64,000 nt of DNA. Origin: Embleya scabrispora DSM 41855. Lineage in GTDB: Bacteria > Actinomycetota > Actinomycetes > Streptomycetales > Streptomycetaceae. Below, in pieces: positions 35,087 to 37,204 of this stretch (position 1 is its first letter; each line of letters opens with the position of its first letter). The notes below the pieces were generated by a model that made no database searches, was not told the origin of the DNA, and saw nothing but the letters and a program-made list of their open reading frames with translations. A program made the translations under genes and the position numbers. The stretch covers positions 62,001 through 126,000 of the forward strand of contig NZ_KB889741.1 of assembly GCF_000372745.1 (NCBI RefSeq). The letters are read 5' to 3'.

Positions 35087-35290
35087 TCAGCTCGTGAGGC
35101 CGCCCACCAGAGACGTCACCGCGGTGTTGAGGGCGTCGGACGCGTTGGGGCCGGTGCCGGCCGGAGCCGTCGGGTCCGAGGTGTTGAGTGCGATGTCCTG
35201 GGAGGTGTCGGCGTTCGCGACCGGTGCGGCGAGCGTGGCGGCGCCTGCGGCCAGCAGGACGGCGGCGAGAATGCGTCGAGTGTGCGTCAT
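35087..35290 (-). CDS. Small secreted protein
   Basis: 67 residues, MTHTRRILAAVLLAAGAATL then AAPVANADTSQ: a classic signal peptide with an A-x-A site, leaving a mature peptide of about 40 residues without Cys. It ends with ALNTAVTSLVGGLTS, an amphipathic helix. AGGA lies 5 bases before ATG 35290. Small secreted proteins like this are frequent in streptomycetes and some are surface-active or developmental. I do not recognise this one. Confidence 0.7.
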   Translation of the reverse strand: MTHTRRILAAVLLAAGAATLAAPVANADTSQDIALNTSDPTAPAGTGPNASDALNTAVTSLVGGLTS

Positions 35291-35506
35291 GCCATCCTCA
35301 ACGGCGATACCGCCTCACGGGCTACGCCCTATCACCCACTCGGACCTGTCCGCGCCCGGCCGGACCGCACCTGACCGGCACCACCCCGGCCGGCCCAACC
35401 CCTCCGCCCGGCCGCGCACGCCTCGGTCCGACCGCCCTGCCTCCGGATCCATCCCACCTCGCGAGCCTGCGCGAAAAGCCTTCGACAACCCCCGCACGTC
35501 GGCTGT

Positions 35507-35512
35507 TACCGT
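35507..35512 (+). promoter_or_regulatory. -10 box TACCGT of the ABC-F leader transcript
   Basis: TACCGT is followed by exactly 7 bases and then the ATG of the leader ORF at 35520, so transcription should start at or next to that A. TTCGACA about 20 bases upstream may be a weak -35. Confidence 0.5.
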
Positions 35513-35519
35513 GGCCCGC

Positions 35520-35543
35520 ATGTCTACGCCCCGAATCTCCTAG
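35520..35543 (+). CDS. Seven-codon leader peptide ORF upstream of the ABC-F gene
   Basis: ATG TCT ACG CCC CGA ATC TCC TAG encodes MSTPRIS. It is probably leaderless (the -10 box is 7 bases upstream) and ends 59 bases before the ABC-F ATG. A terminator-like hairpin begins 4 bases after its stop. Short Arg-containing leader ORFs ahead of hairpins are known to regulate ABC-F resistance genes by ribosome stalling in Gram-positive bacteria. The coding role here is inferred from this layout. Confidence 0.5.
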   Translation: MSTPRIS

Positions 35544-35547
35544 CAAC

Positions 35548-35588
35548 GGGACCCGCTTACACGTCACCCGTGTGTCCCTTTGCTGTTT
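35548..35588 (+). promoter_or_regulatory. Terminator-like attenuator hairpin before the ABC-F gene
   Basis: GGGAC (35548-35552) pairs with GTCCC (35574-35578), and inside it ACACG (35559-35563) pairs with CGTGT (35569-35573) around a 5-base loop. TTTGCTGTTT follows directly. ACGGG (35546-35550) can instead pair with CCCGT (35567-35571), a competing fold. This looks like a transcription attenuator controlled by translation of the leader ORF. Confidence 0.5.
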
Positions 35589-35602
35589 CGGAGCGTTATC
35601 CC

Positions 35603-37204
35603 ATGATCACCCTTCGTGGTGTCGACGTGCGCGTCGGCGCCCACCTGCTGCTGTCCGACGTCGGCTTCCATATCGCCCCCGGTGACCGGGTCGGCCTGGT
35701 CGGCCGCAACGGTGCGGGGAAGACCACCCTGCTCGACACCGTTGCCGGCCGCATTCCACCTGCGGCGGGCACCGTCACCCGCACCGGCTCGCTCGGCTAC
35801 CTGGCCCAGGATTCCCGCGTATCCGACCAAAGCGTCACCGTCACCGACCGGATCCGCTCCGCGCGCGGCCTGGACCGGGCGGACCACGCGCTGCGGGCTG
35901 CCGAGGCCGGGCTCGCCGACGCGGTGGACCCGGCCGCGCTGGAGCGGGCGATGCGCGCCTACGTCCGAGCCGAGGCCGAATTCCAGGCCCGCGGCGGTTA
36001 CCCGGGCGAGGCCGAGGCGGCCCGGGTCGCCGCCGGGCTCGGGCTGCCGGAACGTGTCCTCGACCAGCCGGTCGGCGCGCTTTCCGGCGGGCAGCGACGC
36101 CGCGTGGAACTGGCCCGCATCCTGTTCGCCGACCACGGCACGCTGCTGCTGGACGAGCCGACGAACCACCTCGACGCCGACTCGATCGCCTGGTTGCGCG
36201 GTTTCCTGGTCGGCCATCGAGGCGGCCTGGTGCTGGTCAGCCACGACACCGCGCTGTTGGCCGCAACCGTCAACCGGGTCTTCCGCCTGGACCCGCACCG
36301 CGCCGCAGTCGACGTGCACAACACCGGATGGTCCGGCTACCTCGCCCAACGCGACGCGGACGAACGCCGACACACCCGCGAACGGGCCAACGCCGAGCGC
36401 AAGGCCGCCTCGCTGCACGCCCAGGCGGACAAGATGCGCGCGCACGTGGCGACGGCCGTGGCCGCACGGAACATGGTCCGTCGCGCGGATCGCATGTTGG
36501 CCGAGCTGGAACCGGCCCGGCGTGCCGACAGGGTCGCCCGGATCCGGCTGCCCGAACCGGCCCCCTGCGGGCGCATCCCGCTCGGCGCGATCGCGCTTAC
36601 CAAGTCCTACGGCGACCACCGGGTGTTGACGGACGTCGACCTGGCCGTCGACCGGGGCAGCCGACTGGTCGTCCTGGGCCTCAACGGCGCGGGCAAGACC
36701 ACCCTGCTGCGCGTCCTCGCCGGGCGCGAGACGCCGGATCGAGGTCGGGTGGTGGTCGGCCCCGGTCTGCGTCTGGGCTACTTCGCCCAGGAGCACGACA
36801 CGCTGGACCTCACCCGTTCGGTCCGGGACAACCTGGCCGCCGCCGCCCCGCACCTGAGCGACGGTGAAGTGCGGCAGGTGTTGGGTGGGTTCCTGTTCAC
36901 CGGGGGCGACGCGGACAAGTCGGCCGGGGTGCTGTCCGGCGGCGAGAAGACCCGGTTGGCGTTGGCGGGCCTGGTCCATTCGGGCGCCAACGTGCTGTTG
37001 CTCGACGAGCCCACCAACAACCTCGACCCGGCCTCCCGGGACGAGGTGCTCGCGGCGGTCGGCGACTATCCCGGTGCGATCGTGCTGGTCACCCACGATG
37101 TGGGCGCGATCGAGGCACTGCGCCCGGACCGGGTGCTGCTGCTCCCGGACGCCACCGAGGACCTGTGGCGCCGGGACTACCTGGACCTGGTCACGCTCGC
37201 CTGA
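35603..37204 (+). CDS. ABC-F family ATP-binding protein (ribosome protection type)
   Basis: 533 residues from ATG 35603 with GGAG upstream. Two ABC domains: Walker A GLVGRNGAGKTT and LGLNGAGKTT, signatures LSGGQRRRVELA and LSGGEKTRLALA, Walker B LLLDEPTNHLD and LLLDEPTNNLD. There is no membrane domain. The domains are joined by a charged linker (RERANAERKAASLHAQADKM...) corresponding to the P-site tRNA-interaction motif. ABC-F proteins act on ribosomes to dislodge antibiotics or rescue stalls. The leader ORF and hairpin upstream suggest induction by translation inhibitors, favouring an antibiotic-resistance role over a housekeeping one. It carries a C-terminal repeat of CCTGACCGGCCGGAGCGG overlapping the stop. 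Confidence 0.93.
   Translation: MITLRGVDVRVGAHLLLSDVGFHIAPGDRVGLVGRNGAGKTTLLDTVAGRIPPAAGTVTRTGSLGYLAQDSRVSDQSVTVTDRIRSARGLDRADHALRAAEAGLADAVDPAALERAMRAYVRAEAEFQARGGYPGEAEAARVAAGLGLPERVLDQPVGALSGGQRRRVELARILFADHGTLLLDEPTNHLDADSIAWLRGFLVGHRGGLVLVSHDTALLAATVNRVFRLDPHRAAVDVHNTGWSGYLAQRDADERRHTRERANAERKAASLHAQADKMRAHVATAVAARNMVRRADRMLAELEPARRADRVARIRLPEPAPCGRIPLGAIALTKSYGDHRVLTDVDLAVDRGSRLVVLGLNGAGKTTLLRVLAGRETPDRGRVVVGPGLRLGYFAQEHDTLDLTRSVRDNLAAAAPHLSDGEVRQVLGGFLFTGGDADKSAGVLSGGEKTRLALAGLVHSGANVLLLDEPTNNLDPASRDEVLAAVGDYPGAIVLVTHDVGAIEALRPDRVLLLPDATEDLWRRDYLDLVTLA

Follow-up and report, generated by a model that had tools for sequence, protein, structure and literature searches.

The 64,000-nucleotide (nt) stretch of Embleya scabrispora DSM 41855 analysed here (contig NZ_KB889741.1, positions 62,001 to 126,000 of the forward strand; hereafter the window) is part of an 11.4-Mb actinomycete genome and contains an ABC-F gene that is preceded by a short leader. 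This leader is likely to be a translational attenuator built on a leaderless upstream open reading frame (uORF), a reading held with good confidence, for which the layout of uORF, helix, stem and promoter comes from comparison of homologous loci and the closed and open states from calculation. Transcription from a WblC-type promoter would begin at the ATG of a seven-codon uORF or one base away from it. As long as no ribosome is on the uORF, its codons 3-6 would pair with the ABC-F Shine-Dalgarno (SD) sequence, and ABC-F expression would be kept off by a long hairpin; a ribosome paused on the first uORF codons would occupy the anti-SD strand, which would leave the SD accessible and allow the ABC-F protein to be made. 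The start site is predicted, ribosome stalling is the presumed signal, and the presumed natural inducers are drugs that act at the peptidyl transferase centre, with phenicols or oxazolidinones as the likeliest candidates. Such a compact switch would carry sensor, lock and coding sequence on one strand, and would join leaderless translation with antibiotic-induced attenuation, two fields that are usually separate.

The elements of the leader and its target gene lie as follows (window positions):

35473..35487, plus strand: WblC/WhiB7-like upstream box GAAAAG, 3 nt and -35 hexamer TCGACA, followed by a 19-nt spacer; 8 of 10 consensus positions
35507..35512, plus strand: -10 element TACCGT
35520..35543, plus strand: uORF MSTPRIS, apparently leaderless, N7 after TACCGT; ATG at 35520, TAG at 35541-35543
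within 35520..35543, plus strand: uORF codons 3-6, predicted from fold and covariation to double as the anti-SD strand
35526..35535, plus strand: 5' strand of the putative SD-sequestering helix, ACGCCCCGAA (uORF nt 7-16)
35542..35584, plus strand: lower and apical stem, AGCAACGGGAC ... ACACG-loop-CGTGT GTCCCTTTGCT, from pairing and double changes on the tree
35548-35552, 35559-35563, 35569-35573 and 35574-35578, plus strand: nested hairpin arms GGGAC, ACACG, CGTGT and GTCCC
35579-35588, plus strand: tract after the hairpin, TTTGCTGTTT
35587..35596, plus strand: 3' strand of the putative SD-sequestering helix, TTCGGAGCGT, from fold and covariation; includes the SD GGAG at 35590-35593
35603..37204 including the stop, plus strand: ABC-F gene of an OcrA (Rv1473)-like subclade, 533 amino acids, two ABC_tran stretches and ABC_tran_Xtn

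The first-pass annotation of this DNA had described TACCGT-N7-ATG, the MSTPRIS frame and the nested hairpin that begins 4 bases past the uORF stop, and all of these are found at the positions given, before the ABC-F gene. Pairing of 35526-35535 with 35587-35596, which encloses the SD, was absent from that list and appears when the window leader (87 nt) is folded; the fold has a free energy of -29.7 kcal/mol (z = -4.0), and none of 200 shuffles is equally stable.

Conservation of the leader and probable translation of the uORF

Homologous loci were drawn from protein searches of named genomes (best 80 matches), of 100 relatives and of 297 same-family genomes. Identity to the window protein falls into two ranges separated by a gap, 68-81% for a subclade and about 54-66% for a paralogue, and the main set consists of all 62 loci that are at least 67% identical (the window itself, 7 from named genomes, 12 from relatives and 42 further same-family loci); loci discovered after this set was fixed were not added to its statistics. 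The closest ABC-F match in the plasmid collection is that of Embleya sp. NBC_00888 (89.7% identical), and the best match among the named genomes reaches 79%. Nearly every one of the 100 relatives has the paralogue; for a few (e.g. G095) only distant or partial matches are listed. The subclade gene is listed in at least 52 of the 297 same-family genomes, which is a lower bound because a covariance search adds four genomes (G318, G474, G519 and G626) in which the leader precedes an ABC-F-like frame.

All 62 close homologues have, within 200 nt upstream, a -10-like TAnnnT followed after 6-7 nt by an ATG and a short ORF; dinucleotide shuffles show this pattern in 5 of 3100 cases, and 200-nt stretches taken at random from the window in 3 of 2000. 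The search pattern for the uORF itself (ATG-[TG]C, seven codons) matches exactly once per locus, 6 nt (28 loci) or 7 nt (34 loci) after the TAnnnT, which leaves no room for an SD of its own if the predicted start is correct. A second codon for Ser or Ala and a last codon for Ser are reported for all 62 uORFs, position 3 is Thr or Ser in 60 and Leu in 2, and none contains a run of Cys codons. The peptide is MSTPRIS at 43 loci, MSTPRVS at 9, MSTPRMS at 4 and MATPRIS at 2, and MASPRIS, MALPRIS, MSLPRIS and MSTLFIS are found once each. By eye, the layout is also kept in Embleya sp. NBC_00888 (MSTPRLS) and Nonomuraea gerenzanensis (MSTPRTS), both outside the model set.

Since its codon changes are mostly synonymous, the uORF is very probably translated. 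When placed on the ABC-F protein tree, 60 of 80 codon changes are synonymous, whereas random single changes would be so in 33% of cases. The numbers of nucleotide changes at codon positions 1, 2 and 3 are 15/4/68 in the uORF and 49/91/64 in the 18 nt past its stop. Codon 2, which lies outside the SD helix, has undergone 24 changes, 20 of them synonymous and 4 from Ser to Ala. The earlier proposal of a translated, apparently leaderless sensor ORF, for which conservation of the ORF and compensatory stem changes had been named as the supporting signs, thus gains from the presence of the ORF in all 62 homologues, from its codon signature and from the promoter spacing (the start site being predicted).

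Pairing of the uORF with the SD

Across the 62 aligned leaders (MAFFT alignment A1), 86.8% of the cells of the whole structure (uORF-SD helix, lower stem and apical stem) are paired, compared to at most 41.9% when partners are slid by 1-3 columns, although this score favours the structure over its slid versions, as it was derived from the same 62 sequences. For the uORF-SD helix alone the values are 95.5% and at most 46.6%, and parsimony on the tree finds 12 double changes in it, compared to 0-1 in eight slid versions. Wobble changes in uORF codon 5 are accompanied by matching changes beside the SD, and pair 15-96 occurs as AU in 39 leaders, GC in 8, and CG, UA and GU in one each. The lower stem shows 14 double changes, compared to 1-6 when slid, and both sides change in 6 of its 11 pairs, which bears out the expected conserved and compensated stem. 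The SD lies 9 nt from the start codon in 56 of the 62 homologues. The conserved pairing of the uORF with the ABC-F SD points to translational attenuation.

The apical stretch at 35559-35566 (ACACGTCA in the window; consensus CCACGCCA) is nearly invariant across homologues, and two forms of the apical stem alternate between species, CACG/CGTG or CGCTTC/GAAGTG. By eye, L012, L015, L097, L130, L150 and the leaders of transporter genes described below seem to form the lower stem in another register (GGACAC with GUGUCC), which is hidden in A1.

To model occupancy, the ribosome on the uORF was treated as a block of leader nt from nt 1, and the free-energy cost of opening GGAG was calculated. The median cost over the 62 leaders is 9.70 kcal/mol for the free leader and 2.54 kcal/mol with nt 1-18 blocked. 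According to the end of the block, it falls to 5.1 (nt 9), 3.3 (nt 12-15), 2.5 (nt 18) and 2.4 kcal/mol (nt 21), and is 3.6-4.1 kcal/mol for ends at nt 24-36. Because blocks to nt 18 or 21 give the lowest cost, a ribosome held on the first uORF codons would open the SD best. The median release by the nt 1-18 block is 6.77 kcal/mol (7.7 in the window leader) versus 0.01 in dinucleotide shuffles; only 10 of 1240 shuffles equal the release of their own leader, and at 53 of the 62 loci none of the 20 shuffles does so.

A putative WblC-type promoter

The WblC motif of Streptomyces coelicolor reads GAAAWY, 3 nt, TKGMNN, 16-19 nt, TANNNT, and most transcription start sites of WblC promoters lie 7-8 bp downstream of the -10 element (PMC7157823). 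When scored on the 10 fixed positions of this consensus, the 62 leaders have a median of 8; 39 of them reach at least 8, compared to 37 of 3100 shuffles, and 9 score 6 or less. The promoters of the paralogue at the WblC spacing have a median of 4, equal to that of shuffles, and only 1 of 31 reaches 8. The promoter therefore resembles the WblC/WhiB7 target type, and transcription is predicted to start at, or adjoining, the A of the uORF ATG.

Distribution of the leader and further targets

Covariance model R1 was trained on the 62 leaders, which it matches by construction, so that only its new matches are informative. It matches in 64 of the 297 same-family genomes. Among 394 genomes of the class it matches in 21, and these belong to two families, f1 and f19; the protein search contributes two loci, L099 and L100, from a third family (f3). 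The leader thus occurs in three actinomycete families, of which f19 is probably Streptosporangiaceae, as judged from named Nonomuraea loci. The SD release is at least 4 kcal/mol in 10 of 11 ABC-F leaders of f19, two of which have different peptides (MSNSRIY and MSESRIY).

Among the 64 R1-positive same-family genomes, 52 have a listed subclade ABC-F gene, 4 have an ABC-F-like frame and 8 have neither. In six of these eight (G535, G521, G652, G480, G493 and G046) the leader precedes a major facilitator superfamily (MFS) transporter; in the other two the match lies at a contig end (G513) or is followed by neither an ABC-F nor an MFS frame (G526). A second copy of the leader precedes an MFS transporter in G516. 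The leader-linked MFS proteins match Pfam MFS_1 above its cut-off, and their best NCBIfam match, TIGR00900 (H+ antiporter/Mef-like), is below its cut-off. By eye, 9 of the 10 closest full-length MFS homologues in the 297 genomes (at least 56% identical) carry the leader, seven as R1 matches and two (L205 and L206) not, and no such leader was seen in 20 MFS homologues of low identity (L207-L226, at most 42%). All nine MFS leaders fold their uORF onto the SD with matching changes (CGU/ACGG), and the SD release ranges from 0.7 to 6.3 kcal/mol; their uORFs read MPAAPRVS, MAITPRVS, MLVTPRVS, VLTTPRVS (twice), MTAASRIS, VFTTPRVS, MRTAPIV and MRIAPIV. Promoter scores reach at least 8 in 7 of 8, compared to 7 of 400 shuffles, L203 being left out as it has no TAnnnT at that place.

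Several loci show departures from this arrangement. In G608 (L176, contig C28) a second leader copy with uORF MSTPRVS is followed by an apparent ABC-F start remnant and then, 156 nt beyond the leader, by the start of an EmrB/DHA2-type MFS frame (TIGR00711 above cut-off), possibly a leader captured by another gene. The leader in G526 (L182) and those before a shortened frame or an unusual start in G474 (L173) and G626 (L175) are perhaps decaying copies. L204 (G036:C29:55322-56515) is a 65% identical MFS gene that has no leader and lies about 3 kb from a leader-controlled ABC-F gene.

Alternative explanations

Several observations weigh against a leaderless-uORF translational attenuator. Pair 15-96 is lacking in 12 of the 62 leaders, and the lower stem is paired in only 78.5% of cells in A1. 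On the tree the SD helix is broken 19 times and the lower stem 74 times; we read part of the lower-stem breaks as length changes that the alignment missed. The uORF is altered to MSTLFIS at L098, and the hairpin has diverged at L159 (25.2 bits in the covariance search). In the model, the SD is still weakly paired (2.5 kcal/mol) when the uORF is blocked; L193, of family f19, shows no release (-0.2), the MFS leaders L179 and L184 release only 0.7 and 0.8 kcal/mol, and L201 and L203 re-close under longer blocks. A joint-probability measure of SD opening reached its set thresholds in none of the 62 leaders and none of 310 shuffles; it did not discriminate, and the free-energy cost was used in its place.

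Plain translational coupling, in which the uORF is always translated and the passage of ribosomes opens the hairpin to set a basal ratio rather than to sense drugs, is unlikely but survives best among the alternatives. It would agree with the model in that blocks from nt 1 to any end between 9 and 45 lower the median SD cost to 2.4-5.1 kcal/mol, and coupling between a leaderless short ORF and the gene that follows it has been described in mycobacteria (PMC4633059). However, 53-83 nt separate the uORF stop from the ABC-F start codon in the 62 homologues, which would be far for re-initiation, position 2 stays Ser or Ala while its codon varies, and the targets are of protection and efflux type.

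Transcription attenuation, somewhat less probable still, would make the hairpin and a U-rich tail a terminator, the formation of which is prevented by a ribosome stalled on the uORF. The 8 bases past the hairpin hold at least 5 T in 16 of the 62 leaders (e.g. TTTTGCTT), where termination may add control, which tells against a purely translational mechanism in these members, and the Streptomyces ABC-F genes tiaA and are5sc have been described with terminator/antiterminator leaders (PMC12421871). On the other hand, 39 leaders hold at most 3 T and 7, including the window, hold 4, and a consensus scan for intrinsic terminators recognised none in the window. In leaders without the T-run, the opposite arm has often changed too, with pairing kept (e.g. 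L090, L093 and L120; by eye), and the SD helix, which clearly covaries, would have no role in a pure terminator. In addition, PMC12421871 reports that a transcriptional tiaA fusion is constitutive and that induction is seen in translational fusions only. The ACGGG/CCCGT competing fold noted in the first-pass annotation was rejected as a functional element, as it is complete only in the window (1 of 62) and its 4-bp core is present in 19. With few U-tracts, no terminator recognised and no conserved competing fold, a terminator/antiterminator was set aside as the main mechanism. Of the ribosome-mediated attenuation first proposed, the translated uORF, the covarying stem and the ABC-F target of a drug-linked family stand, and the implied termination switch does not. 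Because 39 of the 62 leaders have no clear U-tract and the competing fold is complete in one, translational attenuation is likelier than a terminator switch, perhaps with added termination in T-rich members.

A ligand-binding RNA or RNA thermometer, for which translation of the uORF would not be needed, might account for an apical stretch that is nearly invariant above a variable lower stem; however, the uORF has a clear coding signature and Rfam gave no match for the leader up to E = 1, which makes this reading very improbable. A chance pattern or an alignment artefact, conceivable when the earlier annotation rested on a single leader, is hardly credible given the shuffle counts for the promoter-uORF pattern and the covariation on the tree.

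The ABC-F protein and its likely inducer

The window protein contains its two ABC_tran stretches and ABC_tran_Xtn above the Pfam cut-offs, and scores 338.6 bits with NCBIfam ribo_prot_ABC_F (NF000355), below the cut-off of 380. Its best-matching solved resistance ABC-F is PoxtA (E 1.2e-67), although YheS scores higher and EttA similarly. The homologue L068 of M. vaccae lies in the order enoyl-CoA hydratase-like gene, ABC-F, TetR-like gene and 943-amino-acid frame (named by eye), which matches the order echA12-Rv1473-Rv1474c-acn. Because of this match the window ABC-F is taken to be in the OcrA family, the link to Rv1473 running through gene order. The OcrA-like assignment and the PoxtA match support an ABC-F target whose family is associated with drugs that act on the ribosome.

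Knockdown of Rv1473 is reported to lead to linezolid sensitivity, and the M. abscessus homologue to affect linezolid and chloramphenicol and also macrolides (PMC9159947, PMC12633451). Stalling by chloramphenicol and linezolid is described as strongest with a penultimate Ala and weaker with Ser or Thr (PMC8987054), and Ser/Ala at uORF position 2 fits phenicol/oxazolidinone stalling. A position 3 that is mostly Thr and the OcrA-type ABC-F were also weighed in favour of such inducers. The following codons are also constrained by pairing with the SD, as xCG CCC CGN reads Thr/Ala-Pro-Arg; because codons 3-5 are fixed in this way, only position 2 is independent evidence of stalling. The MFS uORFs do not keep Ser/Ala at this position, which calls for caution about the inducer. 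Lincosamides and pleuromutilins, which are reported to stop ribosomes at start codons (PMC12421871), would open the SD too.

A broader reading would see the leader as a portable cassette, in which a WblC-driven leaderless mini-ORF that is also the anti-SD strand reads phenicol/oxazolidinone-type stalling at Ser/Ala-Thr-Pro and switches on both ABC-F protection and MFS efflux. We hold this tentatively, at slightly short of an even chance. If true, it would represent an antibiotic-sensing attenuator that uses leaderless initiation and is perhaps common for actinomycete OcrA-family genes. If the uORF reads such stalling, this would account for the way in which actinomycetes may induce OcrA-type protection in response to the corresponding drug, and the cassette would mark other genes as candidates for resistance or efflux.

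Relation to known leaders

Cat/erm-type translational attenuation is the closest mechanism. In the cat-86/cmlA and erm attenuators, the SD is concealed in a stem that opens when a drug stalls the ribosome on the leader ORF, and in the cat type the end of the leader ORF lies in that stem. The present leader likewise has its target SD in a stem that a ribosome on the leader ORF would open, here according to the model. It differs from the cat/erm attenuators in its apparently leaderless start, peptide, targets and WblC-type promoter, and in the predicted lack of an SD for the uORF.

Because the leaders as a set do not show an intrinsic terminator with a U-tract as in known ABC-F attenuation leaders, the present leader is set apart from the terminator type. 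The leaders of vmlR (Bacillus subtilis), cplR (Clostridioides difficile), and tiaA and are5sc (Streptomyces coelicolor) share a short uORF and an ABC-F target with it and are reported to be induced by ribosome stalling, but they are 194-232 nt long and are described with intrinsic terminators. The uORFs of vmlR, tiaA and are5sc are described with ribosome binding sites, unlike the apparently leaderless uORF here, which would itself be the anti-SD strand, and the peptides of the group (MIN, MRI, MVGDDDISG and MLV) are different. The vmlR SL-4 and the cplR terminator stem can also hide the ABC-F SD, and for cplR translational attenuation alone is reported to be sufficient for repression (PMC9226507, PMC10201436, PMC12421871).

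Mycobacterial leaderless short ORFs with poly-cysteine (Canestrari 2020, as cited in PMC13236596; candidates in PMC4633059) are likewise said to control a downstream gene. These attenuators sense cysteine, whereas the uORFs here have no Cys codons and precede protection and efflux-type targets; for the present leader, a transcription start at the uORF start codon is predicted from promoter spacing. By sequence and, for OcrA, by gene order, the window gene is assigned to the same protein family as OcrA (Rv1473) and PoxtA/OptrA, for which linezolid/chloramphenicol protection is reported (PMC9159947, PMC12633451, PMC8987054), but it is in a separate, patchily distributed subclade with a predicted resistance role. 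In the searches of open-licence literature, subscription papers being outside their scope, no report was seen that combines a leaderless uORF, a uORF as anti-SD strand and an antibiotic-protection target.

Paralogous and neighbouring loci

The widespread OcrA paralogue loci (e.g. L002, G000:C118) have leaderless short uORFs in 31 of 91 cases, compared to 8 of 4550 shuffles, and in 43 of 91 with a looser pattern, and are possibly a second class of leaderless sensors. Their uORFs are mostly MA[IVFA]LL[AV]H*-like in Streptomyces, V[LP]RCEG* in Micromonospora and VDIQLE* in Amycolatopsis, and for 39 candidates the median SD release is only 1.5 kcal/mol, less than in the main set. By eye, the paralogue promoters of L024, L078, L112 and L116 have a GAAA-TTGC box about 8-10 nt from a -10 TAGACT, nearer than is expected for a WblC promoter.

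In the window, a small divergent gene lies directly upstream of the attenuator promoter (35087-35290, minus strand); its 67-amino-acid product looks secreted and has a signal peptide-like start, MTHTRRILAAVLLAAGAATLAAPVANA.

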